Shown here one piece after another: positions 131 through 42,315 of a stretch of 63,901 nt of DNA (positions within the stretch are counted from its first letter, which is position 1; each line of letters starts with the position of its first letter). The notes beneath the pieces were generated by a model, which saw nothing but the letters and a program-made list of their open reading frames with translations, made no database searches and was not told the origin of the DNA. A program made the translations under genes and the position numbers. This DNA is from Endotrypanum monterogeii (lineage: Eukaryota; Euglenozoa; Kinetoplastea; Trypanosomatida; Trypanosomatidae): NCBI GenBank assembly GCA_000333855.2, contig CM007343.1, positions 319,951 to 383,851 on the forward strand, in the 5' to 3' direction.

Positions 131-3100
131 CTAGAGTCGCCTTGACATTCTTTTCACCATCTCGTCCCTCTCGCGGAGTAGACACTTCAAGCGCCTTCGC
201 TCCTGCTCTGAAAGTTGCCGCATCTGCCGCTCTTTCTCTAGTTGAGCGCGCAGCGAGCGGTGATCACTATCCGCTGAAGATGAGCTCCCACCGTCCACCA
301 CAACCAGTGGACAGGAGTGAGTGGAAGCCGAGGAGAAGCTGGCGCCGAGAAAGGGTACTGTCGCGTGCATCGAATTCACCCGGGATACCGGGGCGGAATC
401 TAGCAGTGGCGATGTTTCTGGGTAGTGCCTGCTGCGCGCAGTTGGTGTATCGGTGCGCAGCGAGCGGTACCGAGAGGAGACGCTGCTCACATCATCGTTG
501 CAGCTCTTCGACGCTGGTAGCGTGACGCCGTCGTCGAGGTGCGCCGCACCGATACCGCGTGCTGTAAGCTCCAGTTGCTGGATCAGTGCCTTGAGTCGAA
601 GTGAATCGCTCTGCCATTCCTTGAGATAATTGTTGACCGTGTCGCGCGCCACCGTCAAGTCCTTCATTGCCCCACGGGCGACAGCGCGAGCAGTGTCCTC
701 AGCATTGATCCTTGTGTCTACGTCTCCATCGTCGTCCTCGCCGAGGGCGGTCGCCTGCGTCTGCGACCCATCCTCTCTGCACATCAAAGATATGCAGTCT
801 CCTTCCGGGAAGAAACCGAGACTACCGTGTTCGATGTGCCAACTAACGTAACTTTCCTGCCCCGTGTACTCGGATGGGTCTTTGCGGCGCAGATGATGAA
901 TAAAATAAAGGTACATCCACATGTTGTGCTCCGACGTCACGTGGCCAGCAAAGCCCGCACCACCGCTCTTCTCCAGTGTATCGAAGTCGAGACCGCAGAT
1001 AAAACACAACCCGTGCATGTCCATCTCCTTCTCGCGTTTCTCATCGCGCATCTGGCCAAATGTGTCGATAATAATACCGAACAGGACGTTGAGAAAGACG
1101 ACGGTGACCAGGGCATAGAAAAGCATGTCGTAGGCGAGCCGCACCAACATGCGTCGGTTGCCCCACCTCCAGGGCCGCATCACGTCACCAACCCCGCCAC
1201 CCGCACGCAGTCCTTGATCCATAATGTACATAAAGCATCGGAGAAGCGTCTCGCAGTTCGTGGACGATGCAGCGCCGGCATGGCCACTGCCGTCACTATT
1301 GGCATCATACTGATCCGCGAAGACTAAGTAGCCCACTATGCTGAATAGATAGAGCATGATGATACCCATCAACGACGTCAAGAGCAGCTGGCGGCCGTTC
1401 ATCGTGATGGCCGAAATAAATGTACGCAAAGCAGGGATACTGTACACCACAAGCATCAAGTTGAACGCAGCAAAGTAATCAGAGACAGTGCAGCTTAGGA
1501 TGGCGAAAACACACATCAGCAGTCTGAAGTGCATCTCGTACCATGTCAAGAAACTTGAAAGACGCTCACGAGCGGTCAGGCCGGCATAGGCCTCCTCCAA
1601 TTTGACGTTGAGTTGCACCCGCCCCGCTGCAAAGCGCTGCTTATTTTTGTATACACTGTAGAGGCGTACGGGAAAAAGAACGGCGACGTAGACCACACAG
1701 AGATAGACACACACGAGGGTCTGGAAAATGCACAACACCTGCATCACCAGGAAGCCCTTCTTTACCGTGGCTTTTGAGGTATCGTTGCCACCCTCCATCG
1801 CGATCAGAATCGTGTTCACCGCCACCGCCAGGACCATGGAGGCCCTGTCGTACCACACCAGCTCGTATGGTATCAGCACACCAGCTATATAGCTGTTATG
1901 GAAACCCTTTAAAAATCGCGTGCAGCGTTGCGCAATGCTGGGTCGCCCGCCGATCGTTTCATCGTAGTAGGGAATCGAGAATTGTGTACAGCTACGCAGC
2001 TTACGGTGAAAGGCGTGGCTCCACTCGACGGCGAATATGATCTCGTCGCACTTGTGGAGAAAATCTGCCAACTTTGTCGTTCGACTCGTACGATCAACAG
2101 CCCAAAGTAGCTCGTTTTTGCGCTCTCGGGTGAGGCTGCTGCAAATCGCTGGAATGCGGAAATACACCCGCTCGAGGCCGTCAGCGCGAAGAACTTCAAT
2201 GCTCCCGAGGTACCTCGAGACCGACTGCGCGCTCCGCAACAGCGACTCGACCCCTGCGGCGACTCCCTCCAGTGCTGCGTACGGCTGGACAGACCACAAA
2301 TAAATCACCCAGTTAAACATCGCCTCCACCCGGTCGCTCGTCTCGAAGGTATCTTGATCGTGGTGAATGTAATGAAGAGTGGAGGGGTGAAGCGCGTATT
2401 GCACCTCGAGGGCGACTGTGGTGAGCGGAATCTGACGAAGAATGCGCCGGTACGCCTCTGCCTCGCGGCAGCCCTCCAGAAGGGCAAGGAGGGTACTGCT
2501 CACGGCCACACGCAGGCGGTCCGCATCGTCGGGGGGAAGCGCATTCCAGAAGTCTTGGCCCACACGCCCACACCCTCTGGTGAATGCAGGAGAACCCCCA
2601 GCAGCGACGCGCAGGAAGGAGGGATCACCACCTGTTATGGATCCGGTGTTGTATGCAGTCTGCCAACTCGCAGACTCCTCCTGCAAGTACTCTACCACAT
2701 GTCGAATGACACGGCACGCACCGTACTCGATCAGCGACTGTTGGTTCAGCCGGCAAGGGCCCTGACAGGCCTCTGTGAGAAAATCGAATCCTTGAAGAAT
2801 GACGCCAAAATTGCTTGGTGTGACGAAGGCGCTCATCTCCTCCAAAAAAATCATCGTCTCGTGAATAATGTTGGCACTGTGCAGGTTGTCATGCTGGGCG
2901 CGGACATAGTTTTGGAGACCGCTGTGATGACCCTCGCAGAAAAGCTGCAGGAGTCGGAAGAGGTAAATAATAAGCTTCAACCGGCGACTGCCGCGCACAC
3001 GTCCCCACCCACTGACCTGCTGCGTCACGCCGCCCGCCGCCGCCGCCGTCCACAAGGGCTGGTGATCCTCGCCAAGTGAGGTGACACTTGTGTGGGAGAA

Positions 3101-6100
3101 GAAGAACTCTCGATCCACATCAAGGCCTTGGCCAGACGGCATCGGCCTCTGGGCGAGGATCAACGCATTCACAAGCTGAATGTTGGCCGCAGCCACCGCA
3201 CTCCTCGAGTGACCAATCAGCATCCCGCGCTTCATGAGGCAAAACTGATGCTCGGCATTCATCCGCTCCACCCAACGGAGGTTCTTGCGTAAAATGTCTC
3301 GGATGTCATGAAAAAAACTTTCATTCCGCGTCAGGAAATAATCGATCAGGCGATTCTGTGCGCGGCGGTTTCCACCCTCGAGTATGAGCACGCCAAGCCG
3401 CATGGCGTTGAGGGAGATCACGTCCTCCTCCAAGCCACAAAGTGAAATGACAACGCTCAGCATGCCGGTGTCATCGAATGTAGTCTGCAACGCGAGTCCG
3501 AAGTCCTCCAGCGAGACAGCCGCATCGGAGTCCCAACGCCGCCACGCTGCATCGCGACGGAGGTTGCTGTCTTCGGGCCCGCCAGCGGGAGCATCAGGCA
3601 CGCGGGCGCCAAGAAAGACTGGAAAGGGGCCATCCTTCGCCGAAGTCTGGGCCACCCCTGTACGACACTTCGATGCGGCGTTTGCGCTGCCAACACCGCC
3701 CTCCAACAAAGCACTGACCAGCTTGGGGTAGTGTAGCGCAGCGTCGAGCGCATTTGAAAAGAGATTCAGAAGCCCCACGAACGTGACAGGTCGGAAAAGA
3801 TTCTCACGCATCGCCTCCAAATTGCAGGCCACGGAGCGCTGCATGTCCTCATCGAAGGTGCAGCGAAGCAGCTGTTGCATTGCAATCATAGCCACCTCTG
3901 AAGGAAACTCCTTGATAGTTGGGATGAGGGTGTCACTGCAGAGAACACTGCGCAGAGAGGCACGGACAGCAGATACGCCGCGGTCCCTTGCGAGCACGCC
4001 GGGAAGAAGAAGCCCCAAGCCGTTCAGCCCGTAGATGTCCACCTCCTCCTTGAACTCTCCGAAGGTATCACCGGCAGTCCCATCTGCACCCTGTTGAGTA
4101 GGACTACCGACACCTGCCGCTTCCAGAGTCTCCTGTAGGCGCAGCTGAGCTTGAGATACCGCTTCATCCGAGAAAAGAACACGATACGCACAAACTTCGT
4201 CGTCACTACCACATTCACTGCGACCGCCATACTGTATTTGCTGTAGAAGCGCGCGGGTAGCGGCGCCTGATGAAGCCCGGGTCGCGCAGGCGGGCGCCCG
4301 CAGCGACCCTGCGTCACCGCGCGCACCCCCGCCCGTCTCTGCATCCACTTTTTTTTTTTGCTTTGGTTTCTTTCCAGTGGCCTTCACAGCGGCCGCATGG
4401 ATATTCGTAGCCGGAGTCCCCGGCTCGCACTGCTGTCTGGCAAGCCAGAGACGCATCCTCTCTTTGGTGTCCCCGCACGACTCTGCCAGTGCGTCGAGAC
4501 TCGGGACGTCGTTGTCGTTGAGGTGCGTGAGTCTGTACTCCAAGATGCCGAGCGCTCTACGGTGGTTCACGACCTCTTCCGCTGTCAGCTGCAGCGCAGC
4601 CATATGCTTCATTAAGATACCGCCAAAACGGGCAAAACTTGCTGCCAGCTCACTGAAGGCGTTGCCGATCACGTCCTTCTGAAAGCGCGTGTAGCCATCG
4701 GTGCTGAAGCAATTCAAAAAATAAGCTGCAATAGCAACAGGAATCGTTGTACAAGTCAGCGACCGATGAGCGCGCACGGCAGCAAGGCCACGACTCACGG
4801 CACGCACGCTGCCCCCGCGCTCCACGGCATCGCTGAGGGTGTTCAAAGCGCTTGTGAAAAGCCGCGCGATGCACCAAAACTGCTTACTCCCCACCCACTG
4901 CAAGCAGCGACGGCGACTGGCATCCGCGCTGTCGTTTTTCGGGATGAAGTACAACGCAACGAGAAGGCGTACGTAGGGGTTCAGAAGCTTCAGCGGTGCG
5001 ACAGGAGACTGTTTCATGGACCCATCCTCTGTCCCCTTCTCACCGTGACCACGATGCAGAGCCTTCATCAGCACGGACGGTAAAGACTCGAGAATGCGCT
5101 TTTGAAGAATGACGCTACATATATTCTCAGCAGGCAACATGCTGCGTGCCAATGTCAGCACGGTCGTGTGAGAGCCACAAATGCTGCAGACGAGGTTCAC
5201 CAGCGATGACATGAAGACCACCGAGGGCAACGTCGTGTTTAGGCGAGCGCGTGCAAGACTCGCCAGCGTCCCATGCTCGCGGAACAGCATCATCATGCGC
5301 CGACGCACAACGGGCGAAACAACGCTCTTGGAAAAAATGTACTGGCTAAGCATATCAATTAGCTCCGGGTCTGGTATCTTAGCGCTGAGCTCGCCACTCA
5401 CGTGCCCCACCAACGCCACGAGCAGATTCGGAGTCAGGTAATCCTCCACATGCGGATCAGTCCGCAGCACACGCACAATAATGTGCAGACAAACTGTCGC
5501 CATATGATCGCATGTGTCCACTTTCTCGATGAACAACTTCACGAATGGTTGTAGCAGCGACGAGTTGCTCTCTGAAAATGTAAAAAGATAGAAGAACTGT
5601 AGCACCGTGTTGAAGGCTGGGTCAGATGGGGTGAGGTAGGGCAGCATTTGGAGGAGCGACTCGTGCACTCTCCAGTGTGCCATCATCTCCGCTCGAATGA
5701 TCGTGCTCATGGGAATAGCACTGGTCTCAGAAAGTCCCAAGGCACGCCTTCGATTGCGTATCGTTCTTTTGTAAGCTAGCATGCTGACGGCGGCTGATGT
5801 ACTACTCCACAGCCTGTTGATACGTTGTCGGCGTCGCCGCAGACGCATGGAGTCGGACATTGCTGCAGACCCTTCCTGCGCAGCTCCGCACGACGCCTCA
5901 AGACCGGCCTGCTGTCCCTCGTTCTCATCTGATTGGTCTCCACTCTCCTCATCTTCGGAAAAGAACCACTCGTGCAGCACACCCCCAGAGGAACAGCTGA
6001 ATAAAGAAGCGCGCCGTTCTCGGAGGTGGGTGGCTCTGGTTGCCACCACTCTGGGTGACGAGGACTGCAAATTTTCTCCCGTACCCGACGCAGGGACACC

Positions 6101-9100
6101 AGCCTCCTCACCTGCTACATCACAGGGCGCGTCCTCTGAAGCCACCGCCACCAACGGCGAGGGACCGTTAAGGGTGTCAAGCGCTGCTTGAACAGGTGCC
6201 TCCCATTGCAACGCGTACGCCTTATCCCGACTTACACACTCAAATGCCTCACGCAGCTGCACCGCTACATCGCATATTCGGTCAAAGCTCCGCAGCACCT
6301 CAACGGAGGGCAGCGTATTTACTTTCAGAACCAGCTGAGCAATAGACCGCTTCACCACACAGAGCTGCACCAGCAGGTTCATGGCCTGCACGGTCAGCGC
6401 AGGGCAGTCGTAGCGTGTTAGGTCGAACAGGCGCGGCACCAGGAGAGTCGGCTGAAAGTATTCCACAATACAGCTCGTGTGGTAGTCAACATAGGCCTGC
6501 ACATCTGCTGCCAACACCTTGGCGGCGGTGGCACCGTGAGCAGAGGCCAGACTGCAAGAATTACCCTCCACGGAACGACCCGCCCCTTCTACGTAAGATT
6601 CGAGAGACACCCTCGCGGCCCCTGCGTCGCCGTCATCCGAGACAACTTCCTCCCGAGGCCACGCGGAAGAAAGCGCAGCTGGTGGCGACGATGCCTGCGT
6701 GTGGAGGAGCTTCGACATCCATGGGGAAGATGAACTAGTCGAAGGTACTTGTGGTCGTTGCCTCGAGAAGCTGAAATCAGCGCTATCACCCACTGGTGCG
6801 TCCAACGACACCACACGATCCTGGAGATCATGATAGCCGCCGCGATCACGCTGAGCTGCCAGTGTAGTGCCAGTCCCGTCTTGGAGTACGTTGACGTCGC
6901 GCCTGCGTCGCGCGAGAAGGGGACTTTTTTCTGTCATTTCAGCGACACCACCGCCGCCCTCGTCACTTTCTTGATCCAGCACGGTCTCGCGAAGTCGTCG
7001 CCTCATCGTCTGTAGATCTACCGCAGCTGGTGACCGAGACGATAGACTCGAGAGCTGCCCCTCTCTGCGGTCGTCCACATAGGTCTCGTAAAGATATACA
7101 ATTACACCATCGGCTGCCCGGAAGATCTCTTGCTGCAGGGCAAGCGCGAGCGCTTCACAGATCATCTCTCGAATTCGCATGATGTGAAGACTCTCGACTT
7201 TGTGCACAAGCCTTGAGCTCCCACTGCGGTCACTAACAGTTGTGCCACCGGCACCGATTGGGTTTGAGGTACTCTGTGCAGTGATGCATTCTGAGAAAGA
7301 AGCGGTCAGCTGGCTTGCGCTCCGCATCAACGACCCCTTCGCTTCTGGTCGATTCGCTTTATTCAGCAAACGGCACTCCAGCACATCTTGAGTGCCGTCA
7401 AGGAGCTGCATCAGCACCGGAAGTAGCTCAAGCACCTCCCCGTGTGAATACTGCCGGTAGCGGATCAGCTTCAGCCACATGCTCACTGCCGAGCGCATCA
7501 GCACACTACGGCCGATATCGTCTTGGACAAAAAAGGGGTTTGCCCGGAACAAATGCATGACAACCCTCTTGAGCGTCTGCGTCATTTCATCATCGGGCAG
7601 ACCCGAGTAAGTGCGACCGCGTTGCCGCAGCTGACTCGAGCCGAAAAGAACGGTGCTGACACGCAGCTGCACCGCTGGCGCAGAGATGCGGGGCAGTATA
7701 AAGCACTGCAAGGCAAGACGGATAAGGTGACTGCGCAGCTCATCGTGCATCGAGATGCGCCCGACTGCCTGCTCACCTGTCCACACAAACGTCTCGAGGA
7801 CATTCCTCAGGGCCACCGCGGGGAAGTGTTGACGAACCACACGTCGGCACTGCTCCGGACAGCCGTCGTAGCAGAGACGAGCAAAGAGGGCAATCTGGTT
7901 CTTCACAAACGAAACCTGCCTCTTGTCCTTCCAGCCGGTGAAGAAGTCCGCGAAAGGGATATAACCCTCTGGAGGGGACGACAGCACGACACCCACTGAC
8001 GACCCGGTCATGCATCTCGGCACGCCATCGCCACCACCCGGGTCAGGACCCACACCTCTCCTTGGCGCCGCCTCCCCACGCTCCGTCTCCCTATCGGTGA
8101 CGGCACCAGCGCTCTGGTGGGGTGAAATGTAGACCGCGCCCTCCACCTCCCCGGGCCGCACCACCACGGCGAAGCGACACAGCGAGTGCGGGTTTTCTAC
8201 CAGGAGCCTCTGGCACACGAATGCCTGTCGCTCCGGCACACCTTTGTATTTGATGGTGCACGCCGCCCCCAGAAAGTTCATGTAGGCACTGCTTCGGATC
8301 TCCTGCGAGACGTTGATGAAGTGCTCCAGCACCTGCCGCACAGCCCGCAGGGGGATGTATGGATTATCCGTGAAAAGCTCCTGCATCGTGTCCACCACGT
8401 GAAGCCGAAGACCGTCCATATGGAGAAGCACCGGGATGTAGGCGCTCCAATCACGGGCGAATGTTGCTGCGTTGCCTTTGATCATCTGTCGCAGGAGTCG
8501 CAGCGTAAGGCGCATCAGTAGGTGCAGCTCCCTATGGATCGGCAACATCACCTCTTTGACCTCCATCACACCCCCACCAACGTCCGCGCGACGGCTTCGG
8601 CGGTCACCCTTGACATCGAGGGTGTTTGTCGCTAACTCTGCATGGGACAAGGCACCGCCGCCACTGTTGCTTCTGCTGCGCCACATTCCAGACCATAGGC
8701 AGCCCATTTCGGCCTGCTGGTGCTGCGCCAACGACAGTTTCTCGAACACTTCACCAAACGTGTCGTAGTCAGCAGTCATAACAGCCGCAAGGTTGTTGGA
8801 TGTAGCAGCGCGGCGGGCATCAGGCCCGTACGCCTCGGCTGAGTCGAGGAGTTCAAAGGGCGCGCGAAGAACGTCGAAGAGGAGACGATGGAAACGTACC
8901 TCATGCAGGAGGGACTGCCGTGACACAATGGGGAGCCCCTCGCGCTGCAACACATTGGTCTCCTCCGACTCAGTACAAAACTCAATCAAGACGATAAGCG
9001 CACGCTGACAAAGACGAATGGTGTTACGCATGGATGCATACGACGGCACCTCATCCGTGCCACCGCGAACACCCCAGCAATCGATGCTATCACCCCGCTG

Positions 9101-11815
9101 CTCAGCCGCCGCGCTGCAGTTGCCTGTCGACATACTGGTGCACACGGTCGAAAGCGAAGTTCTTACCTTGGGCCCTCTAGAAGGGGAGGCCAACGGCGCC
9201 CTTGGCCCCAAAAACCCATCGCGCCGCTTCAGGAGCTCCGAGTCTGGGTCTGGGGTGTTATACAGCGACTTGATCCGGGCAGGGAGAGAATCGCGAGACT
9301 GCGTCTCAGCCTCCAGCCGCGCGGCCGCTTCTGGGTTACCCTTCAGCGCAGCAGCCTCAAGCTCCGCGCGTACCTGGCGCTTTTGACGCACCAGCGCCTG
9401 CATCTGTGCACGATAACGTGCCAACCACGCGCACTGCCCTGCAATGAATCGTGCATCGAGCTGCAGTTGATGTGGGACGTAGGAGACACTGATGGAGTCC
9501 ACCATCGACATCTGAGAATCTAGTGACAGGGATACATTACTGCCCTCCACACTGGCAAGTGTCACGACGTACATATCTGTGAGGGCATTTTTGAGGCATA
9601 GGCAGCTCTGCTCGATCAGGTATGTCGAGTCTGTCGCGTACATAGACTCAACACAGAACAGCGTTGCGATAAGTTCGCGGCGGGTGCGAGGAGGCGGAAT
9701 CAAACACAGCCGCGTCTCTCGCGTAGACGCAGCTATCCCCCCGGGGGCACGGTTGTTGAGCCAATCAGTAGCAGCGATGCTGACGGCTGTCGCACGCCTG
9801 CTGCGCAGCACTCTGGGGGTTGACTCCTCGGAAGATGATGAAGAGTAGGACTCCTCGGAGGAGTCGCTACTTCGAGAAGATGTTCCAGCACGCATGACCC
9901 CAGAAACACCTTGTTTCCATACCTCCTGCACGGCCCCGTGGTCGGATGAGGCTCCATCGTCATCACTCAAGTCTGCGAGCATTGCGTCGACAGCAGTCCC
10001 GCACACCGACACGTACATCCCCGATATGACATGCCGAAGCCGGTAGCACCACGAATCACCGAGCCGTAGCGGTCCACCCAACGAGGGATCCTCGTGTTCA
10101 AAGCACCACAGTGTGGTGCAGTGGCGGTGCGACTCGGCCGTAGACATGTCCGCCTTGACCGTGGGGACACCGCTACCGTCGTGGGAGGTTGACGCGAACA
10201 CAGGGAACGGCAAGTGCCGCCCATTACCCACATCGATCAGACCCTCGTCACGTAGCGCCTGCTCCATCTGATGTCGCTCCTGCTGCGGTTGGGTGTTGTT
10301 GGTGAACATAGAGCAGTTTTCGTAGTGCGCCGAGGCAGACCGGTTCACCGTCGTTAAAGGGGTGCGAAGGGACGCCTGCGAGGTGGCCCTGCCGAAGGAT
10401 GAAGTCTTATAAATCGCGCCGGCTGCACCACGCAGTGCCTCAACGCTGGCTGGAGAAGATCTGCGCTTCGCCGTGACGACCACCGCTGCGCCCGGTGTGC
10501 ACTCACGGTCGACATCAGGTAATCCAGCGATGGAGTGATGGCGAGCGCTGGACTCGGCCCCCACTCCCGGAACCCAGACGCTTTCCGCGTGTGTCGCGGT
10601 GGTAGAGGTACGTTCAGCCGCGGGCGACGCCGCCGTTTCTGATGTCATGGTGTCCGCGTTTGCCTCCGCTGTGTCGGCACCTTCGTGGCCGACTGCTGCT
10701 GGATCTGAGAACTGAGAGTTCTGTGTTGTACTTATCATGAGAAACGACTCACGCTGTCGGTGGAAAAGGGTCACCGGCACCCCGCATGCAATATATGGAA
10801 GCGTAATGCGCAGCTGCGTCCGCTGCAAGTTGGCGCGGTCAGTGCCCATGTCGTAGCGGTGCACCGTGAACGTGACCCCACCTTCCTCACACGCATTCAC
10901 CTCGTCGAGATACTCGCGCGTGAGAGCCTCCACAGCGATTTCATTGTTGCACCGCCCCTGCGCCATTGCAGCGTCCCCCGCAGCGTGCGCCGCAAGCCAG
11001 CCTCGAAAAGTTGGCGAGGAGGAAACTCCGACAACACTAGATGCGCGAGCACCGCCTGTCGCTGCGTATGCACTGAGAACAGACGTACTCCTCTTTTTGC
11101 AAGGCATAGTACTGCCAAGACGGAAGGTGCGACGCAGCAGCTCAATGCCTGCGGGGTTGTCCGCATACTCCTCCATGATCGGCAGCGCAGACACGTGCAG
11201 ATACATCGGATTTCCAGTCAACCGAATAAGCACGCTGTCAGTCAAACATAGCTTGTCGCCATCCGCGTGCATCTTGTAGCGCGAGACAAGCGTCAGCTCA
11301 CAGGAGGGGGTCTGCGCAGCTGAAGGTCTGACGAGCACAACGCTCAGGCAATCTGGATCATTCTCTGAAGGAAGTTCGTGGGCGACACTCAAGAACAACC
11401 CACTCGCCTCATGCACAAGGGAGAAGCTTTTTCCATACGTGATCTCCTCGACGTCGATAATGCTAGCTGCACTGCGCGGATCGTAAAACAGGTCTTCTGC
11501 CTTGATGTCGGAAACTGTGCTCGAGACACCATTACTGCCGCTCCTGAGGCGATTGCGGGTGTGTGGGCGGTCGGCTCCGCTAGCGTCTTTCACCGAGGAA
11601 GCCGCTGCACGGGAACTAAGCGTTGGCACTACACGGAACACACAGGAATCTGCGAAACCAAAAAATGGCAGTACCTCATCTGTCGTGTCACCGACCACTG
11701 ACGGAGCACGCAAAAACAAACGCTCCCCCACCAGGCCAGAAGCGGCGAGGTAACCGTCCCGGCATTTGAAATAGATGAGACTGTATAACTTGATGGTGCG
11801 CCGGCCACGGTCCAT
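131..11815 (-). CDS. Inositol 1,4,5-trisphosphate receptor-type intracellular Ca2+ channel
   Basis: A 3,894-residue IP3-receptor/ryanodine-receptor family channel, expected to release Ca2+ from an acidic or ER store. Seen: an N-terminal beta-trefoil/MIR-like region (about residues 30-240), an RIH-type helical block near 930-1000, an RIH-associated segment near 2940-3030 (containing LLQLFCEGHHSGLQNYV), a C-terminal membrane domain from about 3320, the selectivity filter GGGVGD at 3539-3544, a pore-lining helix ending FGIIIDTFGQMRDEK, and the CFICG...H(x4)HNMW zinc-finger linker from 3604 that is diagnostic of IP3 receptors. The tail ends in a predicted coiled coil. Long Ser/Glu/Gly-rich linkers make it much longer than animal receptors (about 2,700 residues, from memory). 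The open frame continues to 11884 but begins with TTG and reads through a 12-base T tract. The AGs at 11830-11829 and 11821-11820 precede the ATG at 11815, so I start there. The frame is intact throughout. Confidence 0.96.
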   Translation of the reverse strand: MDRGRRTIKLYSLIYFKCRDGYLAASGLVGERLFLRAPSVVGDTTDEVLPFFGFADSCVFRVVPTLSSRAAASSVKDASGADRPHTRNRLRSGSNGVSSTVSDIKAEDLFYDPRSAASIIDVEEITYGKSFSLVHEASGLFLSVAHELPSENDPDCLSVVLVRPSAAQTPSCELTLVSRYKMHADGDKLCLTDSVLIRLTGNPMYLHVSALPIMEEYADNPAGIELLRRTFRLGSTMPCKKRSTSVLSAYAATGGARASSVVGVSSSPTFRGWLAAHAAGDAAMAQGRCNNEIAVEALTREYLDEVNACEEGGVTFTVHRYDMGTDRANLQRTQLRITLPYIACGVPVTLFHRQRESFLMISTTQNSQFSDPAAVGHEGADTAEANADTMTSETAASPAAERTSTTATHAESVWVPGVGAESSARHHSIAGLPDVDRECTPGAAVVVTAKRRSSPASVEALRGAAGAIYKTSSFGRATSQASLRTPLTTVNRSASAHYENCSMFTNNTQPQQERHQMEQALRDEGLIDVGNGRHLPFPVFASTSHDGSGVPTVKADMSTAESHRHCTTLWCFEHEDPSLGGPLRLGDSWCYRLRHVISGMYVSVCGTAVDAMLADLSDDDGASSDHGAVQEVWKQGVSGVMRAGTSSRSSDSSEESYSSSSSEESTPRVLRSRRATAVSIAATDWLNNRAPGGIAASTRETRLCLIPPPRTRRELIATLFCVESMYATDSTYLIEQSCLCLKNALTDMYVVTLASVEGSNVSLSLDSQMSMVDSISVSYVPHQLQLDARFIAGQCAWLARYRAQMQALVRQKRQVRAELEAAALKGNPEAAARLEAETQSRDSLPARIKSLYNTPDPDSELLKRRDGFLGPRAPLASPSRGPKVRTSLSTVCTSMSTGNCSAAAEQRGDSIDCWGVRGGTDEVPSYASMRNTIRLCQRALIVLIEFCTESEETNVLQREGLPIVSRQSLLHEVRFHRLLFDVLRAPFELLDSAEAYGPDARRAATSNNLAAVMTADYDTFGEVFEKLSLAQHQQAEMGCLWSGMWRSRSNSGGGALSHAELATNTLDVKGDRRSRRADVGGGVMEVKEVMLPIHRELHLLMRLTLRLLRQMIKGNAATFARDWSAYIPVLLHMDGLRLHVVDTMQELFTDNPYIPLRAVRQVLEHFINVSQEIRSSAYMNFLGAACTIKYKGVPERQAFVCQRLLVENPHSLCRFAVVVRPGEVEGAVYISPHQSAGAVTDRETERGEAAPRRGVGPDPGGGDGVPRCMTGSSVGVVLSSPPEGYIPFADFFTGWKDKRQVSFVKNQIALFARLCYDGCPEQCRRVVRQHFPAVALRNVLETFVWTGEQAVGRISMHDELRSHLIRLALQCFILPRISAPAVQLRVSTVLFGSSQLRQRGRTYSGLPDDEMTQTLKRVVMHLFRANPFFVQDDIGRSVLMRSAVSMWLKLIRYRQYSHGEVLELLPVLMQLLDGTQDVLECRLLNKANRPEAKGSLMRSASQLTASFSECITAQSTSNPIGAGGTTVSDRSGSSRLVHKVESLHIMRIREMICEALALALQQEIFRAADGVIVYLYETYVDDRREGQLSSLSSRSPAAVDLQTMRRRLRETVLDQESDEGGGGVAEMTEKSPLLARRRRDVNVLQDGTGTTLAAQRDRGGYHDLQDRVVSLDAPVGDSADFSFSRQRPQVPSTSSSSPWMSKLLHTQASSPPAALSSAWPREEVVSDDGDAGAARVSLESYVEGAGRSVEGNSCSLASAHGATAAKVLAADVQAYVDYHTSCIVEYFQPTLLVPRLFDLTRYDCPALTVQAMNLLVQLCVVKRSIAQLVLKVNTLPSVEVLRSFDRICDVAVQLREAFECVSRDKAYALQWEAPVQAALDTLNGPSPLVAVASEDAPCDVAGEEAGVPASGTGENLQSSSPRVVATRATHLRERRASLFSCSSGGVLHEWFFSEDEESGDQSDENEGQQAGLEASCGAAQEGSAAMSDSMRLRRRRQRINRLWSSTSAAVSMLAYKRTIRNRRRALGLSETSAIPMSTIIRAEMMAHWRVHESLLQMLPYLTPSDPAFNTVLQFFYLFTFSESNSSLLQPFVKLFIEKVDTCDHMATVCLHIIVRVLRTDPHVEDYLTPNLLVALVGHVSGELSAKIPDPELIDMLSQYIFSKSVVSPVVRRRMMMLFREHGTLASLARARLNTTLPSVVFMSSLVNLVCSICGSHTTVLTLARSMLPAENICSVILQKRILESLPSVLMKALHRGHGEKGTEDGSMKQSPVAPLKLLNPYVRLLVALYFIPKNDSADASRRRCLQWVGSKQFWCIARLFTSALNTLSDAVERGGSVRAVSRGLAAVRAHRSLTCTTIPVAIAAYFLNCFSTDGYTRFQKDVIGNAFSELAASFARFGGILMKHMAALQLTAEEVVNHRRALGILEYRLTHLNDNDVPSLDALAESCGDTKERMRLWLARQQCEPGTPATNIHAAAVKATGKKPKQKKKVDAETGGGARGDAGSLRAPACATRASSGAATRALLQQIQYGGRSECGSDDEVCAYRVLFSDEAVSQAQLRLQETLEAAGVGSPTQQGADGTAGDTFGEFKEEVDIYGLNGLGLLLPGVLARDRGVSAVRASLRSVLCSDTLIPTIKEFPSEVAMIAMQQLLRCTFDEDMQRSVACNLEAMRENLFRPVTFVGLLNLFSNALDAALHYPKLVSALLEGGVGSANAASKCRTGVAQTSAKDGPFPVFLGARVPDAPAGGPEDSNLRRDAAWRRWDSDAAVSLEDFGLALQTTFDDTGMLSVVISLCGLEEDVISLNAMRLGVLILEGGNRRAQNRLIDYFLTRNESFFHDIRDILRKNLRWVERMNAEHQFCLMKRGMLIGHSRSAVAAANIQLVNALILAQRPMPSGQGLDVDREFFFSHTSVTSLGEDHQPLWTAAAAGGVTQQVSGWGRVRGSRRLKLIIYLFRLLQLFCEGHHSGLQNYVRAQHDNLHSANIIHETMIFLEEMSAFVTPSNFGVILQGFDFLTEACQGPCRLNQQSLIEYGACRVIRHVVEYLQEESASWQTAYNTGSITGGDPSFLRVAAGGSPAFTRGCGRVGQDFWNALPPDDADRLRVAVSSTLLALLEGCREAEAYRRILRQIPLTTVALEVQYALHPSTLHYIHHDQDTFETSDRVEAMFNWVIYLWSVQPYAALEGVAAGVESLLRSAQSVSRYLGSIEVLRADGLERVYFRIPAICSSLTRERKNELLWAVDRTSRTTKLADFLHKCDEIIFAVEWSHAFHRKLRSCTQFSIPYYDETIGGRPSIAQRCTRFLKGFHNSYIAGVLIPYELVWYDRASMVLAVAVNTILIAMEGGNDTSKATVKKGFLVMQVLCIFQTLVCVYLCVVYVAVLFPVRLYSVYKNKQRFAAGRVQLNVKLEEAYAGLTARERLSSFLTWYEMHFRLLMCVFAILSCTVSDYFAAFNLMLVVYSIPALRTFISAITMNGRQLLLTSLMGIIMLYLFSIVGYLVFADQYDANSDGSGHAGAASSTNCETLLRCFMYIMDQGLRAGGGVGDVMRPWRWGNRRMLVRLAYDMLFYALVTVVFLNVLFGIIIDTFGQMRDEKREKEMDMHGLCFICGLDFDTLEKSGGAGFAGHVTSEHNMWMYLYFIHHLRRKDPSEYTGQESYVSWHIEHGSLGFFPEGDCISLMCREDGSQTQATALGEDDDGDVDTRINAEDTARAVARGAMKDLTVARDTVNNYLKEWQSDSLRLKALIQQLELTARGIGAAHLDDGVTLPASKSCNDDVSSVSSRYRSLRTDTPTARSRHYPETSPLLDSAPVSRVNSMHATVPFLGASFSSASTHSCPLVVVDGGSSSSADSDHRSLRAQLEKERQMRQLSEQERRRLKCLLRERDEMVKRMSRRL

Positions 11816-11819
11816 GAGG

Positions 11820-11857
11820 CTGAGGAATCTAGGGAATAGAGCGCGAAAAAAAAAAAA
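11820..11857 (-). promoter_or_regulatory. Trans-splice acceptor region for the IP3 receptor
   Basis: On the minus strand a run of 12 T (11857-11846) is followed by C/T-rich sequence, then AG at 11830-11829 and CAG at 11822-11820. The first in-frame ATG is at 11815, giving a very short 5'UTR of about 4-13 bases. This arrangement decides the start codon. Confidence 0.6.
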
Positions 11858-12226
11858 GCACGCTACAAGGATAAGATGCAACAAACACCAACAGAATTTC
11901 GGAATGATTCGCCGTCAAGAATGAGATGCAAAAGATGAAATGATAAAAAAAAACAAGGGAGACAAGAGAGGTGCAAAAGCGGAATCAACAGAAGGAGTTT
12001 GTGTGCACGTAGCGATAACACCTCACTATAAAAGACACCCACACACAAACACCGCCGTCCCTCAAAGGACAAAAATAGAAATCAAAGGTACAACCTGCGG
12101 GTAGGGAGGGGGGGGGGGAATGAACGCTTTTATTTGTTGCCGTCGCCGATTCACCTCCCTCCTCTTCGTTATTGATGTTGCGCGTGTATGTATGCAGATT
12201 GAGAACAGAGTAAAGAGAAGACGTTT

Positions 12227-13978: not shown

Positions 13979-15550
13979 CTACACAATGGAGCTGAAATCT
14001 GATGTCGCACCGTGCAGTGGATCATCAGGTATTGCGAAACCACCTAGTAACTCCTGCACCTTGTCGATCCCGGCAATACGAAGTGAGCTGGTTAAAAGAA
14101 TTTCCTTGCAGTATGTGTAGCGTACTAGTCGGCTGCGTGTGTAGTCAGTCAGGCGAGCAAGAAACCGAATCGGTGCCGCGTCTGTCTTGGTGAGCACCAC
14201 ATTAAAAGGTATCTGATAGGCCTCGAGCAAGTCGCAATACTCGTAGTCTAGGTGTTGCAAACCCTGAGCAGAGGCGCAGAGGAACACACGCTTGATGTTC
14301 CGTGGTTGGTATTGGAGAGGCAGATCTGCACTATCATGGTGGTGATCGCTGCCCACATCATCCTTCCCCGTTTCTTTTTCTGTGTATTCCGCTGATTCTC
14401 GATTTCCCTCGTTCAGTCGCGGGTGGTGGACCACGGTGCGCGCACCGTGGCGACGATGTCGCTGCATCTTGTCAACCGCACCCGGTGCAGCACTAATCTT
14501 CAAGTACGCCCGCATCGCCCGCACCGCGTTCTCCGCGTCAATCGCAGGAGTGCACATCGGGTCATAATGACCATACCCGGGACAATCGACCAGCATAAAA
14601 CGGTTTGCAACATTATAAAAGCGCAGCGAACTTGTTGTCCCTCGCAGATGACCGTAGGGTGTGATCATCGCATTTACCACTGCGTTCACCAGAGAGGACT
14701 TCCCGCACGATGTTCGACCAATAAAGGCGACTTCGGGCAGCAATTCTTTCCGTGGCTCCATCCGAGACGGCGTCTTCCGATGGAAGTGGTCGCCCTGCAC
14801 CTGCCCCTGATGCGGCTTGGCTTTGCCGTTGCGCTTACCGTGCGCAGTTGACGTTGCCAACGTCGAACCTGCTGCCGCGCGTCTGAGAAGCACGGGAAAC
14901 TGCTGTGGGTGAGTGGCACAGCGCACCTGCTCAATGTTGCTGCCAAACGCAAATGTTTGCTGGGTCTTGCTGGAGGTATTAAAAACCGGTGATGTGCCAT
15001 CACCCTTAGTGATCCAGTGCTCCCATGAGACACCGCGCTTGAGCTTCCTCTCGATTCGACGACCATGCAAACCGAAGTATATCTCTTGCAAGATGGCGCG
15101 ATCAAGCGGCCGTTGGCGAAGTTGCTCCCGAAAGGAGGTGGTACTGGGCTGCAGCGTCTCACGAACGGCCCCCTCTACACCAAACTCCTCGATGAGCTTC
15201 TGCTGCTTGCGCAGGTGCGGCTTCGAATCACGCCACACCTTCTCCATTAACGCATCATTCCCCTCCCGGAAAACATCCAGCTGCTGCGTACGCAGTAACT
15301 CCGCGGCACTCTCCGGTGGCAAAAAAGACGCCACAGCAGGACTCACGCGACGGTTCTCCTCGTATTCTCTGAAGTAGGGCGACAACGAGGAGGAGCTGGA
15401 GGACGAGGACGAGCTGGCCGAGTCTCCAGAAAGAGAGAACAGAGGAGGAATGACGATCTTGTGCGGCGATCCCTCCTTTAGCAGCGAACGTGAATGGTGC
15501 AGCACTCCCCCAGGGAGAACTGTCAGACGCGCAGACAGCGTTGATCGCAT
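13979..15550 (-). CDS. EngB (YihA)-family GTP-binding protein, probably mitochondrial
   Basis: A 523-residue protein with a TRAFAC-class GTPase domain of the EngB/GTPBP8 type. Seen: P-loop GRTSCGKS at 278-285, a G2 Thr in GTTSS just after it, G3 DCPGYG at 322-327 (the family signature D-x-P-G-Y-G), G4 TKTD at 454-457, and a G5-like LLTSSLRIAGI. Bacterial EngB assembles the large ribosomal subunit, and mitochondrial orthologues do the same for mitoribosomes. The N-terminus (MRSTLSARLTVLPGG) is Arg/Ser-rich without acids, fitting a mitochondrial presequence. About 270 residues precede the G domain, including a poly-Ser run. Roughly 60 extra residues, rich in His/Glu/Lys, lie between G3 and G4. 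The start is an ATG. The nearest acceptor I see is the CAG at 15581-15579. Assignment to EngB is firm; the mitochondrial role is inferred. Confidence 0.9.
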   Translation of the reverse strand: MRSTLSARLTVLPGGVLHHSRSLLKEGSPHKIVIPPLFSLSGDSASSSSSSSSSSLSPYFREYEENRRVSPAVASFLPPESAAELLRTQQLDVFREGNDALMEKVWRDSKPHLRKQQKLIEEFGVEGAVRETLQPSTTSFREQLRQRPLDRAILQEIYFGLHGRRIERKLKRGVSWEHWITKGDGTSPVFNTSSKTQQTFAFGSNIEQVRCATHPQQFPVLLRRAAAGSTLATSTAHGKRNGKAKPHQGQVQGDHFHRKTPSRMEPRKELLPEVAFIGRTSCGKSSLVNAVVNAMITPYGHLRGTTSSLRFYNVANRFMLVDCPGYGHYDPMCTPAIDAENAVRAMRAYLKISAAPGAVDKMQRHRRHGARTVVHHPRLNEGNRESAEYTEKETGKDDVGSDHHHDSADLPLQYQPRNIKRVFLCASAQGLQHLDYEYCDLLEAYQIPFNVVLTKTDAAPIRFLARLTDYTRSRLVRYTYCKEILLTSSLRIAGIDKVQELLGGFAIPDDPLHGATSDFSSIV

Positions 15551-17895: not shown

Positions 17896-20193
17896 TCACA
17901 TAGGATCGAAAGGCTCAGAAAGAAGGCGAAGCGCCTTATCAGGATCTGTCAAGCACTCGACATTGTATAACATACTGCCTGGTAATTCGGCCTCTCCACT
18001 GCGTACTGAGAGTCCCAAACCGTGAGCCCCTGACCGACCGACCAAGCGCGTGTTCGGGCACACCCCTACTTCGACCGGCGCGGAGTTCACGTCAACAATG
18101 CCGCCGGCGGCGAGAACGTCTTCGGCCTTGTACCACAAAGAACGCCCCCGTGTGTGCTTGGGTGAAGCGTGGGTGGCAACAAACCGCGAGATGGCCTCGT
18201 CTTCCTCACCCACCTTCTTCCCTGCAGACCCGTCGATGCCTGCAGCAATGGAAGAGGGGGGTGACACCACACTCCGGTGTTCACGGGGCTCCTCCTGTTG
18301 GTGCATTGTTGACTCTGGGCCTACACTACCGTGACCATCGGTCAATCCCCTCGACCCTCCCGATGCTGTATCGCCAGCGTGATGTAACGCCTCTGAAACA
18401 GAAGCACATCGCACTGCTTCAGCGATCTCGGGATGCTGATAGATGAGAGAGTCGTAGAGCAAGGCCGGGTAAAGCAGGCGACGACCGCTCGCACCATTCA
18501 ACGGTACACCAGGACTTTCGAACTCAGCCGTGAGGACCGCAGAAGGCACGAGATACGAGTCGGGAAAGAATACTTGTGATATGTGATACCAATACTCGAC
18601 ATCCTTGATAGAGACTGGTGTTGGCGTCTCTAAACTTCGTAATGTAGTGTTCGTCGAAGCAGCGCACGGCACATCTGAGGCATCCTTAGGTTCTGGCGAT
18701 AATGCTTCGGTGTCATCGGGAGCCCTTGGCGCAGTGTCAGATGTGCCGGCTTGACTGCCCACCGCACTCGCCGTCCTCACCCTATCCTCGGGTTCGGTAG
18801 CGCCAAAGTTGTCCCTCAAGCCTGCCGCCCTCGCGGTGTTCGGCAAAACCCCAGCCGCCTCTGGACGGAGCTCTAAGCCCAGCCTTTGGATATGTCGCAA
18901 GGTGAAGTACACCGGAAGTGTCCATCGTTGGACTCGCATGTCGTCCAGCACGTGGAGGAGCACCCTATCAAAGGAAGTCACATCATGGCAGTGATGTCTT
19001 GCCGTGTCAGACAAGAGCGTTAAGTTCACTTCATGGAGCGTATTCTCCGTGGCAAGTGCCTCCCTGACCGTGTCGCCGCTCTCAGGGTCGCTGTGGTGCG
19101 CCGAAGGAGAAAGAAACACAAAAACGAGTTTGCGATTCTTTGCAACAATAATGCACCGCTGCAGCACCTCCTTGGCGTTCTCTATCAGTGATATATGCAC
19201 AATCTTTGACATGAATGGAATCGGGACAGCGTGCTCGGTCTGCCCAGGCTGCGGTGTTGCACCAATGCTCCTCCATTGTCTGTAGGTACCCCACCAGTGT
19301 GATCGATACCCATGTCGGTGTACAAGAGTATTGAGGGAGTGCTCGCGCTGCCGAGAATACGGACGGCGGGTGCATATCGAGTACATACACCGGCTTCCTC
19401 GATTGTTGGCATCATTGCCGATAGGGTTGGGGAAACGCAGCTGCAGTTCCCGAGCACCTTCAGCGATGTGTTGCTGTTGAGACCACAGAGTGGGAAGAGT
19501 GTTGTCTCGAACACCGTAGTCGTCTACCTTCGTCCTGCCGAAGTCTTCAACCGCCAGCGAAGACATGGAGATGCCATCGCTATCCGACAAGTACATCTGA
19601 TCCATGTTGAAGACATAAAGCGGCTTTGTCACGGAAAGCATACAGATGGGGACTCGGTAGTTTGAGAGATCCTCTGCCAGGTGCGTCTGTCGTCCACGCC
19701 TCGCAGACAACGCCTTATTCTCTGCATGTAGCTCTTTTCGGGTACGCGACGAGGTCGCTTCCTCCGTATTGAGCTCAGAGCAGATCTTTGAAATATCAGC
19801 GATTGGCGCAGATCCCCTCGACGGTCCGCCCACCGCCACAGAGTCACTTGCGGCAGGGGCCCGCACAGACGTTGGTGTGGCTGCTCTGCTACCCATCTCA
19901 GGCACAGTGTCGGCAGCCCCTAACCCTCTGATCTTCTGGCCTGCCGCCTTCCCCGCCTGCACCGGGGCGAAGCGAGACAAGCGTGGGTGATGGGCGTAGG
20001 GATCAATCCGCAAAGGATTTACCACGTTGAAAGCGCGTGCGGCCCTCTGCACATTCTCAAAGTCGTCCTCATCTAGCCACAGACAGGAAGACGACAGCGG
20101 ATGCGAGGGCAGAAAGTTCTGCTGTGCAAAGCGTTCGAGAGCCGGGAAGCCCTGAGTGAACACCACCGACCAGCGGCGCGTACACTTGAGCAT
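17896..20193 (-). CDS. Conserved hypothetical protein with A/B repeats (765 residues), paralogue of the neighbouring 348-residue protein
   Basis: I do not recognise a named family. Two alternating motifs are visible. Type A (aromatic-x-x-D/E-x-L followed by P/E and Ala-Leu): VFNMDQM near 194, VHISLIENAKEVL near 331, LLYDSLIYQHPEIAEAV near 579 and MLYNVECLTDPDKALRLL at the C-terminus (about 741). Type B (aromatic/Ser-x-W/Y-W): HGYRSHWWGTYRQW near 293, VEYWYHISQVFFPDS near 530 and RGRSLWYKAEDVL near 681. The order A-B-A-B-A-B-A matches the 348-residue protein encoded just upstream, but here the motifs are separated by long Ser/Ala/Glu-rich stretches. The N-terminus MLKCTRRWSVVFTQGF resembles a mitochondrial presequence. 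The open frame extends to 20250 but begins with TTG, so the first in-frame ATG, 20193, is used. An out-of-frame ATG at 20246 would be bypassed only if splicing occurs downstream of it. Confidence 0.85.
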   Translation of the reverse strand: MLKCTRRWSVVFTQGFPALERFAQQNFLPSHPLSSSCLWLDEDDFENVQRAARAFNVVNPLRIDPYAHHPRLSRFAPVQAGKAAGQKIRGLGAADTVPEMGSRAATPTSVRAPAASDSVAVGGPSRGSAPIADISKICSELNTEEATSSRTRKELHAENKALSARRGRQTHLAEDLSNYRVPICMLSVTKPLYVFNMDQMYLSDSDGISMSSLAVEDFGRTKVDDYGVRDNTLPTLWSQQQHIAEGARELQLRFPNPIGNDANNRGSRCMYSICTRRPYSRQREHSLNTLVHRHGYRSHWWGTYRQWRSIGATPQPGQTEHAVPIPFMSKIVHISLIENAKEVLQRCIIVAKNRKLVFVFLSPSAHHSDPESGDTVREALATENTLHEVNLTLLSDTARHHCHDVTSFDRVLLHVLDDMRVQRWTLPVYFTLRHIQRLGLELRPEAAGVLPNTARAAGLRDNFGATEPEDRVRTASAVGSQAGTSDTAPRAPDDTEALSPEPKDASDVPCAASTNTTLRSLETPTPVSIKDVEYWYHISQVFFPDSYLVPSAVLTAEFESPGVPLNGASGRRLLYPALLYDSLIYQHPEIAEAVRCASVSEALHHAGDTASGGSRGLTDGHGSVGPESTMHQQEEPREHRSVVSPPSSIAAGIDGSAGKKVGEEDEAISRFVATHASPKHTRGRSLWYKAEDVLAAGGIVDVNSAPVEVGVCPNTRLVGRSGAHGLGLSVRSGEAELPGSMLYNVECLTDPDKALRLLSEPFDPM

Positions 20194-20355
20194 TGAGCAA
20201 TGGTGATGGTCGTGAGGGGAGAATGAGCACGACCGTCGTCTTTCATGCAAAAACTGACCTTCACGTTACCCCACCTCCTTTTTTATTTTCGTAGAACTTC
20301 AATTTCTAGAGACGTGTGTGAGGAGTAAGCGTCTAGGGAATTGGCTGAGGATATA

Positions 20356-20356
20356 G

Positions 20357-20417
<61 letters not shown>

Positions 20418-20418
20418 A
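20356..20418. repeat. Compound (TA)n(TG)n microsatellite
   Basis: Around 50 bases of TA, broken once by ACAT, followed by (GT)n. Confidence 0.9.
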
Positions 20419-20803
20419 GGGGAGGCGGGTACGCTCAGTATTGGAGTCGCACACAGCGTCGTGTCCATGCGCGCAAACGCGCACTGCAAATCGGGTGAGA
20501 CAACGACGGGAGATGTGGAGGTATTTAGATGTCCTAGAGCTGAGAGAGACGGGGAGAGAGTGCAAGTGAAAAGAGAAAACGGAAAAAGAAGCCTCACCAC
20601 CCTGCACCCCCTCCTGCCCAGCTGGAGGGTTGACAGAGGTCAGCACAAAAACATGCTTTGAGGGAAAGGTAAAAGAATAGAGACGTATACGCGCACACAC
20701 ATATATATGTATATCGAGACACAACTGTACCGGTACTAAAATGCAGTGTCGGCATCTGTGTCACCGTCCCTATCGGCCTGCGAACAAACTCGCGTCTACA
20801 AGT

Positions 20804-20806
<3 letters not shown>

Positions 20807-20834
<28 letters not shown>
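20807..20834. repeat. (CA)n microsatellite
   Basis: Uninterrupted CA repeat. Confidence 0.9.
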
Positions 20835-22425
20835 CAAAAGGAGGGGGAGGGGCAGGGAAGCTACCCTACACCAAAACCAGGTGCGCACGCACGCCTACTC
20901 TCTATGATCCCCTCTCTCAAGCATGTATGGCCATAACACGCATGGCCCTGCAAACGAGTACTTCCTTATGTGCCCCTTATTCCCCCAATAGCTTAGTGGT
21001 TGATGTGCATTTTATATTTTCCTTCCACCGCACCTTTCCCTTGATTGGGTTCACCGCGGGCTTTGCTTCTATGCAGCTTCCAAGGGAAATGAAGGAGAAC
21101 AGTAAGGCTGACACCGCCCTCCTCTCCCTCTCTCTCATCCACAGCACTACAACACGTTTCTTTTTTATGATACTTCTCCACCGTTGCCTCCATTTTCGTC
21201 TGCATGAACACATATCATTACACAGCACATGCATGTGCACAAAACACACACGGGGACAAATATGAACAGCGAAAGGTGGAGGGAAGAGGAAAGACAAGAT
21301 ACAACATTCAAATAAAAGCAAACACAATCACAACCACAACCACGAAAAAAAAAAAAACAAGCCACAAAGTAGGGTGGACACAACAGCGTACAGAAACCGT
21401 GCATGAACTTCATCCCGTGTAGGGAAAGGAAGAAAAAGAGCGAACTACCCCCACACTGTGTATTTTTGATGACGGTGAAGAGGGGTAGTGATTCACAACG
21501 TAAGGCCGACTCCCTTCTCCCCTTCCCTCACGCACACATAAACGAGAAAACATAAATAATGAGGGTGCATGAAGTAAGGGTGAAAAGGATAAACGAGAGG
21601 GCAAAAAAAAAAAAAAACCTCGGCAGAGCACGGAAAGAAAGAGGGAGAAAAAAGAAATGGGACGAGTGGTTCTTCTTTTCACGAAATACAGCAAAAAAAA
21701 AAAACGCGAAAAGAGCAGGAGGAGGTGGCGAGGAGGGAGGTGATTTTGATGCAGCAATGGACGACATGAGTGTTGTATCTGAGGGACAGAGGGATAAAAG
21801 GTGAGCAATGTTCAACCAGACGGTATCCAAGAAAAGAGGCGACTGACTTCTTCCCCAAGCGCCTCATCCTCCGCCACCCCCCCCCCTCCTCCCTCAGCCA
21901 CTACACTCCCACCTCTGAAGATGACTTGCAGTTGTTGCTCCTTTGTCCTGCTTCAGATTGTTAGCGTCACCACTAGCATCGCTCGACTTCTTTCTCAGAT
22001 ACCAGCTCCTTCTTCCTGCATCCTACACATCTCTTTGAATCTTGCCACTCTTCCCCCCTCACCCCGACGCAGCCACCACCACCACCACCACCCCCCTCCT
22101 GGCGCGGTAGTACTCCACTACACTGACAGCCATTGATGTATGCTATCCAGCCACTGCCGCTAGAGAGCCGAACTCAAGCCGTTTCACGCGTAAATGCGAA
22201 AAAAAAAAAGAAGGAGAACTGAAATCTGAACTCTGAGCACTGCTGTCCCTATCCGAAAGAAAGCGCGAATTGGGAGATGAAGATAGGTGAACCAACCGGC
22301 ATCCACAGAGACAGAGGAGCGGGAGGGGAAAAAAAAAAGATCAGACGATTCCCCTTCTGTTTTCGCTTTGGGAAGTGGGCAAAGGAGGAAGGGGGATAAG
22401 AGATGTGTGCTGCAGGTCATTGTCC

Positions 22426-22453
22426 CAACAACAACAACAACAACAACAACAAC
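22426..22453. repeat. (CAA)n trinucleotide repeat
   Basis: About nine copies of CAA in the 3'UTR side of the spacer. Confidence 0.9.
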
Positions 22454-22606
22454 GAAAAAAATTCTATGATTATCATCCCTCACGTGCAGACACACGGAGA
22501 CACATCCCCACGATAGATAGCGGAGTGCCAAACGGAGGAGGACGACGGAGTAACAAATGAAGAAGGGGAAAGGCAAACCTAAAAACCCGAGCATATGCAC
22601 AAACAC

Positions 22607-22651
22607 ATACACACACACATATATCTATATATCTATATATAGATAGATATC
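22607..22651. repeat. Compound (CA)n/(TATC)n/(GATA)n repeat
   Basis: CA repeat followed by TATC and GATA units, ending two bases short of the stop codon of the 348-residue protein gene. Confidence 0.8.
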
Positions 22652-22653
22652 GC

Positions 22654-23700
22654 CTACTGAATGAAAAGACCCGCTCGGGCGAACGCCTCATCCGGGTTCG
22701 ACAGCTGCTCGACGTTGAACAACTCGTACTGTATCGGGGACGCCGATCCGCTACTGAAAGGCACACCGCGTCGCTTTTCTGTCTCCTTGATGGGCCACTG
22801 GTAAAGCTCGGCATCGCGGCCGGTCAGCCAGTAGTTGCTGCGGAACGTCTTGGGAAACTTTTTGGTGCTTTCCGACATAATCGGCTCCCCGGAGAGCAAA
22901 AATGTTGGCACGTTCACCGGCGCGCGCTGAAGCGTCTTCAGCGCCAAGTGCGGGTCCTCCAACTGGTCCACATTGTAGATAAGATGGCGGTCGCCCGTTG
23001 AAGTCTCCTGCACCACCGGCACCTGATCCGGCAGCGGGACCAGCTTGAAGAACTCCATCTGGCGGCGGGTAAAATACAAACCGCTGTTGAACTCGTTCGA
23101 CTTGATGTGGTCCTGCAGTTGCTGAAATACCTCGCCCTTCTTGCTGTACACGCGGCGAGTGCCGCCACTAACAGGGTACTGTTGAAGCGCGTCGCCGCCA
23201 CTGAGCTGACTGGAATGGAAAAGTTTTATTTGCGACTTTGTCAGGAGGATGCTCGGCCGCGCGTTGGACTTAAATTGCAAATTATCCTTGTACGCCTGGC
23301 CACGAGTAATCCACCATCTGCTTTGGTAGCTGTGCCGCTGTGCACGGTCGTTGAGTTCAAACTGAAGGCGCTCACCATACACCTTGCGACTACTGTAGCT
23401 GCTGTGCTTGGGGGCCTCCATCACCTCTGGAGGAGAGAGGAGCTGGTCGAAGTTATACAGCTCCAGCTGCTTGTCCAACACAAGTTGCGTGGGCAGAGCA
23501 CCGGGCTCCGGCTTGATGCCTAGACGCTCCGCCTCCCAGTCCTCGATCCAGACATTGCTGGGACTGTTCCGAGCCCTCTGGTTACTCTCTAGAACATGGT
23601 GCTGCTGACTGAAGACAACGATGGTGCGATGAGCAGTGGAGACTACAGTGCCGTGTACCACACGAGGGACCGACCCGGACAAAAAAATGCGACGAAGCAT
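22654..23700 (-). CDS. Conserved hypothetical mitochondrial-type protein with 80-residue A/B repeats (348 residues)
   Basis: Family not recognised. Internal repeats are clear. Type A: LYNFDQLLSPPEVM (81-94), LFHSSQLSGGDAL (160-172), IYNVDQLEDPHLAL (241-254), LFNVEQLSNPDEAF (327-340). Type B: YQSRWWITRGQAY (125-137), FNSGLYFTRRQMEFF (from 204), FRSNYWLTGRDAEL (from 286). Successive A units start 79, 81 and 86 residues apart, and each B lies about 44-45 residues after its A. This gives three and a half repeats of about 80 residues. The N-terminus MLRRIFLSGSVPRVVHGT is a good mitochondrial presequence candidate. The open frame extends to 23868 from a GTG and encodes TA-repeat (Ile-Tyr) sequence. 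A C/T tract at 23756-23734 and CAG at 23718-23716 place the 5' end just before the ATG at 23700. Roles such as mitoribosome or RNA-processing subunit are possible but not shown. Confidence 0.88.
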   Translation of the reverse strand: MLRRIFLSGSVPRVVHGTVVSTAHRTIVVFSQQHHVLESNQRARNSPSNVWIEDWEAERLGIKPEPGALPTQLVLDKQLELYNFDQLLSPPEVMEAPKHSSYSSRKVYGERLQFELNDRAQRHSYQSRWWITRGQAYKDNLQFKSNARPSILLTKSQIKLFHSSQLSGGDALQQYPVSGGTRRVYSKKGEVFQQLQDHIKSNEFNSGLYFTRRQMEFFKLVPLPDQVPVVQETSTGDRHLIYNVDQLEDPHLALKTLQRAPVNVPTFLLSGEPIMSESTKKFPKTFRSNYWLTGRDAELYQWPIKETEKRRGVPFSSGSASPIQYELFNVEQLSNPDEAFARAGLFIQ

Positions 23701-42300: not shown

Positions 42301-42315
42301 GTGCGATGTCAACGT

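Follow-up and report, generated by a model that had tools for sequence, protein, structure and literature searches.

We examined two genes of the trypanosomatid Endotrypanum monterogeii, encoding proteins of 348 and 765 amino acids, that lie in a 63,901-nucleotide window on contig C23 of its 30.7 Mb genome (Table 1). An earlier sequence-only reading had presented them as a pair of repeat proteins sharing an alternating motif architecture; its reading frames proved correct in position, strand and length. Both lie on the minus strand, one directly after the other, with a gap of 2.46 kb in which the one listed open reading frame (ORF) of at least 150 amino acids encodes 174 amino acids on the plus strand. 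Porcisia hertigi JKF63_04850 shares 94% identity with the 348-residue protein and JKF63_04849 shares 56% with the 765-residue protein, and hits of the two proteins fall on records of the same size in P. hertigi (878,396), Leishmania braziliensis (797,329) and Leishmania tarentolae (742,662). Consecutive locus tags and equal record sizes indicate that both genes lie on one chromosome, and probably next to each other, in all three species.

Both proteins pass the curated cut-off of the Pfam family Tc-38 (PF20054, 23.2 bits), the shorter at 111 bits and the longer at 50.1 bits. The longer also passes that of ArdC-N (PF08401; 33.1 bits, cut-off 22.6), below which the shorter falls at 19.6 bits; the best relative of the shorter protein reaches E 4.6e-9 against ArdC-N. 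At E up to 1, PF20054 matches 27 of 27 sequences of the 348-residue type and 15 of 15 of the 765-residue type, as does ArdC-N. The 27 homologues of the 348-residue protein include several named ‘mitochondrial RNA binding protein’, and four named Trypanosoma records match it at 65–73% identity over 93–100% of the query. Judged by sequence, it is the orthologue of RBP38/p38/Tc38 (Tb927.8.2740; LmxM.23.0760; PF20054), from which it shows no notable difference, being of the same length class and 65–94% identical to the named trypanosomatid hits; LmxM.23.0760 is the Leishmania mexicana counterpart of p38 and a marker of the antipodal sites (PMC6529878, excerpt). We refer to this protein as p38 and to the 765-residue protein as the neighbour. 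The neighbour falls outside the RBP38/p38 orthologue group in a tree of all four units. Of its 14 homologues, the 11 that carry names belong to Leishmania, Porcisia, Leptomonas and Novymonas, three being nameless. Among these 14 single-sequence matches, or the 14 found by profile (three nameless; about 7,995 candidates scored), there was no Trypanosoma orthologue.

The family is therefore a known one, with the 348-residue protein as its namesake: ArdC-N, the BHD domains of XPC/Rad4 and Tc38 have been unified and a transfer into kinetoplastids proposed (PMC5512222, excerpt), and a review also reports the link between Tc38 and ArdC (PMC10719067). The claims that the pair matches no familiar domain and represents an undescribed family consequently fall away. 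As far as our literature searches reach, the neighbour counts among the uncharacterised proteins of the Tc-38 family: queries with its gene identifiers, some of them guessed by analogy, brought up no paper about it, and a 2026 kinetoplast DNA (kDNA) screen paper contains none of the names Tc-38, Tc38, p38 and RBP38.

The repeats themselves are real, with a period of about 80 residues as proposed. Loose A-motif words occur four times in p38 (0.005 expected) and words of the form S.[WY][WF].T twice (0.005 expected), counts each reached in none of 20,000 shuffles; in profile comparison (hhalign), the six pairs of p38 units match one another at 64–96%. All four A motifs are present, with their aromatic residues at 82, 161, 242 and 328, one position later than had been given, and three of the four have the strict form, the motif at 161 reading FHSSQL. 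The B motifs likewise stand at 125, 204 and 286, that at 204 (FNSGLYF) with a leucine where the pattern wants W or Y. What changes is the architecture: residues around 46–59 (NVWIEDWEAERLG) hold a first, degenerate B, so that the seven-element string A-B-A-B-A-B-A is correctly read as four B–A units. In the AlphaFold model of p38, the strand–helix at 50–59 (strand 50–53, helix 54–59) matches those at 129–138, 208–217 and 290–299.

These elements are ones already described for ArdC-N, which removes the claimed unknown family. Motif A corresponds to the ArdC ‘squiggle’, V121-FNADQ-126 (PMC7213743, excerpt), and motif B aligns with ArdC YRSAYWFTYRQ in a weak profile match (E 0.12). Structure comparison places the units in the fold of the N-terminal single-stranded DNA (ssDNA)-binding domain of ArdC (plasmid R388, PDB 6i89), with the strand–helix B and the squiggle A in common. 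Whereas ArdC joins one such domain to a metalloprotease, p38 and the neighbour each have four and no protease match. Profiles find the four tandem ArdC-N-like units in both proteins, and the p38 model contains them too; for the neighbour, structural support is confined to unit 2, and Foldseek with its model returned just four weak, unrelated matches. Tandem copies also occur in XPC/Rad4 (BHD1–3), grouped with ArdC-N and Tc38 in PMC5512222 (excerpt); BHD domains were not among the structure-search matches, an absence that carries no weight against the relationship.

That the two proteins are homologous, as had been proposed, is borne out by family-against-family comparison (hhalign probability 97.8%, E 1.1e-12, one stretch over units 2–3). 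Unit by unit, with borders set by eye, each neighbour unit matches its p38 counterpart best, in all four cases (87.1, 98.1, 94.5 and 90.1% for units 1 to 4, the last over 19 columns). The runners-up both involved p38 unit 3, paired with neighbour unit 4 (75.3%) and with neighbour unit 2 (51.3%), and column-shuffled neighbour units reached at most 3.6% among 192 control comparisons. Scanning hidden Markov models of the p38 units over 15 full-length neighbours, unsliced, put the best hit in the corresponding region for 57 of 60 sequence–unit pairs: units 1, 2 and 4 in 15 of 15 each, although most hits of units 1 and 4 are not significant singly, and unit 3 in 12 of the proteins, with the window's own neighbour among the three misses. 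Compared with one another, the six pairs of neighbour units score at most 0.9%. In the neighbour's single sequence, the two A words are reached in 1 of 20,000 shuffles and the one B word in 104 of 20,000; a pattern search accordingly picks up just the A motifs at 195 and 743 and the B motif at 296, along with a looser GRSLWYKA at 683, and the rest is visible in profiles only. The shared element order thus holds at the level of profiles, although single-sequence patterns mostly miss it.

The neighbour evolves faster than p38. Its core is 57–79% identical to those of 14 relatives and its long inserts, noticed already in the sequence-only reading and six in number by our count, only 13–42%; p38 residues 27–348 are 91–97% identical in the three relatives compared. 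The A motifs of neighbour units 2 and 3 are degenerate, and the protein is acidic overall. Unit 2 is basic in both families, with a net charge of +5 to +11 in 26 of 26 p38 sequences (median +7) and one that ranges from +5 to +12 across all 15 neighbours (median +8), against medians of −6 to +2 for the other units. Its WW motif is kept throughout the neighbour family except in P0043, which reads YW instead.

Within the otherwise fast-changing insert 1, an AT-hook-like RGRP stands out as conserved. The pattern [KR]GRP occurs there in 10 of 15 neighbour-family proteins, with a shuffle chance of 0.1–2.2% in each, values that are not independent because the carriers are orthologous to one another. 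In the alignment, which is uncertain in this region, 13, 13, 13 and 11 of the 15 sequences retain the R, G, R and P of the site. The Pfam AT_hook model matches two of the 15 (best E 0.2). The E. monterogeii neighbour lacks [KR]GRP, and with it the GRP core and basic flanks of an AT-hook: it reads KELH at the aligned site, and RRGRQ (residues 165–169) about 15 alignment columns further on. Also without the pattern are the proteins of P. hertigi (KGRQ), L. tarentolae (RRKP), Leishmania enriettii (RGRS) and Novymonas (RGRS). Trypanosoma brucei kDNA is more than 70% AT (PMC5737332, excerpt), and another kDNA-associated protein, TAC53, has some homologues in which AT-hooks were seen (PMC12453217, excerpt), so that insert 1 of the neighbour family may plausibly hold a putative AT-hook.

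Adjacency, a shared strand and collinear units make it plausible that the neighbour arose by tandem duplication, as the sequence-only reading had it; the epithet ‘ancient’ goes further than the four-unit tree, which separates the two families fully without rejecting a duplication inside the Leishmaniinae, with the neighbour among their p38 sequences (p-AU 0.42). Six more Tc-38 ORFs, all very diverged and 310–822 amino acids long, occur in the same genome (contigs C35, C23, C28, C32, C29 and C16), of which all but that on C35 pass the PF20054 cut-off as whole proteins. These five (C32, C28, C29, C16 and C23:718712) differ in length and in their number of PF20054 stretches, three in the 604-residue C32 protein, and do not lie beside p38. 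It is possible, though less likely than not, that the neighbour is an older, independent paralogue of this kind that came to lie beside p38 by chance. A tree of unit 2 groups it with three segments of the C32 and C23 (~375 kb away) paralogues rather than with p38 (fork 92/87), and the p38 profile scores the C32 protein at 32.4 bits against 23.7 for the window's neighbour. That tree, however, is built on few columns, its branches are long and its bootstrap had not settled; 12 of the other 14 members of the neighbour family score higher than the C32 protein with the p38 profile, and the side-by-side genes are collinear over four units, down to their VVF[ST]Q start.

We think it likely that the window holds the RBP38/p38/Tc38 orthologue, made of four ArdC-N-like units, and beside it a diverged paralogue with the same unit order that most likely acts on kDNA. 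p38 would be a mitochondrial protein of four tandem single-strand-binding units, its T. brucei orthologue binding the minicircle origin (universal minicircle sequence, hexamer); each unit would run from a helix through a strand–helix (motif B) to a set of strands closed by the squiggle turn (motif A), like plasmid ArdC. The mitochondrial location suggested earlier for both proteins has been demonstrated in published work on orthologues of p38, and is probable for the neighbour. On kDNA, the neighbour would make its main nucleic-acid contact through unit 2, with its basic charge and WW motif, while the inserts would serve as tethers and, in many relatives, the AT-hook-like motif of insert 1 would suit AT-rich minicircles. 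More tentatively, and we are doubtful here, the neighbour family may be, in the Leishmaniinae, a second factor that acts at the kinetoplast origin or on minicircles, with unit 2 on ssDNA and an AT-hook of insert 1 on AT-rich bent duplex bridging the two beside p38, the AT-hook having been lost in the Porcisia lineage.

The degenerate A motifs, the divergence of inserts relative to core, the overall acidity and the missing AT-hook-like motif in this species would also fit a neighbour that has lost DNA binding and acts as a scaffold or regulatory protein, its degenerate units and disordered inserts making contact with p38 or with other proteins of the kinetoplast. We regard this as unlikely, given that the neighbour passes the ArdC-N cut-off at unit 2 and that the charge of that unit and, but for P0043, its WW motif are kept across the family. 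A role of both proteins chiefly on mitochondrial RNA, in its stability, is suggested by the original name RBP38 and several database names; it is very unlikely in view of the p38 orthologue's presence at antipodal sites and on minicircle origin strands (PMC10719067 and PMC6529878, excerpts) and of the mainly mitochondrial Tc38 of Trypanosoma cruzi, which binds TG-rich ssDNA and minicircle sequence (PMC2654453, excerpt). What remains of the original proposal is a paralogue, still uncharacterised, next to a protein of kDNA replication. It offers a candidate unit for binding DNA and a short motif conserved in its family, and is relevant to the way in which DNA-binding domains of plasmid type were assembled into kinetoplast replication.

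Table 1. The p38 gene, its neighbour and their repeat units (window positions; percentages, hhalign matches to p38 units)
Feature	Residues	Position	Strand	Remarks
RBP38/p38/Tc38 orthologue	348 in all	22654..23700	minus	PF20054 E 2.2e-32, 3 stretches; 27 homologues
p38 unit 1	27–95	23416..23622	minus	degenerate B (NVWIEDW), A at 82 (YNFDQL); best PF20054 stretch 27–91
p38 unit 2, basic	99–175	23176..23406	minus	B at 125 (YQSRWW), A at 161 (FHSSQL); ArdC-N profile 101–153, below cut-off
p38 unit 3	176–262	22915..23175	minus	B at 204 (FNSGLYF), A at 242
p38 unit 4	267–346	22663..22902	minus	B at 286 (FRSNYW), A at 328
Neighbour, Tc-38 domain protein	765 in all	17896..20193	minus	four units, six inserts; PF20054 E 2.3e-13; ArdC-N E 7.4e-8; 14 homologues
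Neighbour unit 1, first part	8–76	19966..20172	minus	VVFTQ start aligned with p38 VVFSQ; p38 unit 1, 87.1%
Neighbour insert 1	77–177	19663..19965	minus	site of [KR]GRP, carried by 10 of 15 proteins of the family
Neighbour unit 1, second part	178–205	19579..19662	minus	A motif FNMDQM at 195
Neighbour unit 2, basic	267–352	19138..19395	minus	B YRSHWWGT at 296; best unit match to p38
Neighbour unit 3, first part	405–450	18844..18981	minus	94.5%
Neighbour unit 3, second part	533–550	18544..18597	minus	degenerate A (WYHISQV)
Neighbour unit 4, first part	551–590	18424..18543	minus	placed by eye
Neighbour unit 4, second part	665–711	18061..18201	minus	B-like GRSLWYKA at 683
Neighbour unit 4, last part	738–762	17908..17982	minus	A motif YNVECL at 743; 90.1% over 19 columns

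Two other identities were set aside. Solved structures include kinetoplastid mitoribosomes, and the suggestion that the pair might be mitoribosome or RNA-editing subunits was rejected on finding no match to PDB chains up to E 10 with either single sequence; the p38 profile matched only an engineered protein (E 0.59). The idea that the neighbour might be p93 was dropped because the review places p93 at another locus, Tb927.3.1180 (PMC10719067).

Elsewhere in the window, the next long minus-strand ORF after the pair encodes a GTPase-domain protein of 523 residues (MMR_HSR1, E 4.6e-11; 13979–15550), and a 3917-residue calcium channel of the IP3/ryanodine receptor type (Ins145_P3_rec, RIH_assoc, Ion_trans) lies at 131–11884 on the same strand. 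Two SET-domain proteins are encoded at 39652–42312 and 47598–49007, again on the minus strand, with an FAD-linked oxidase gene (45135–46847) in between.

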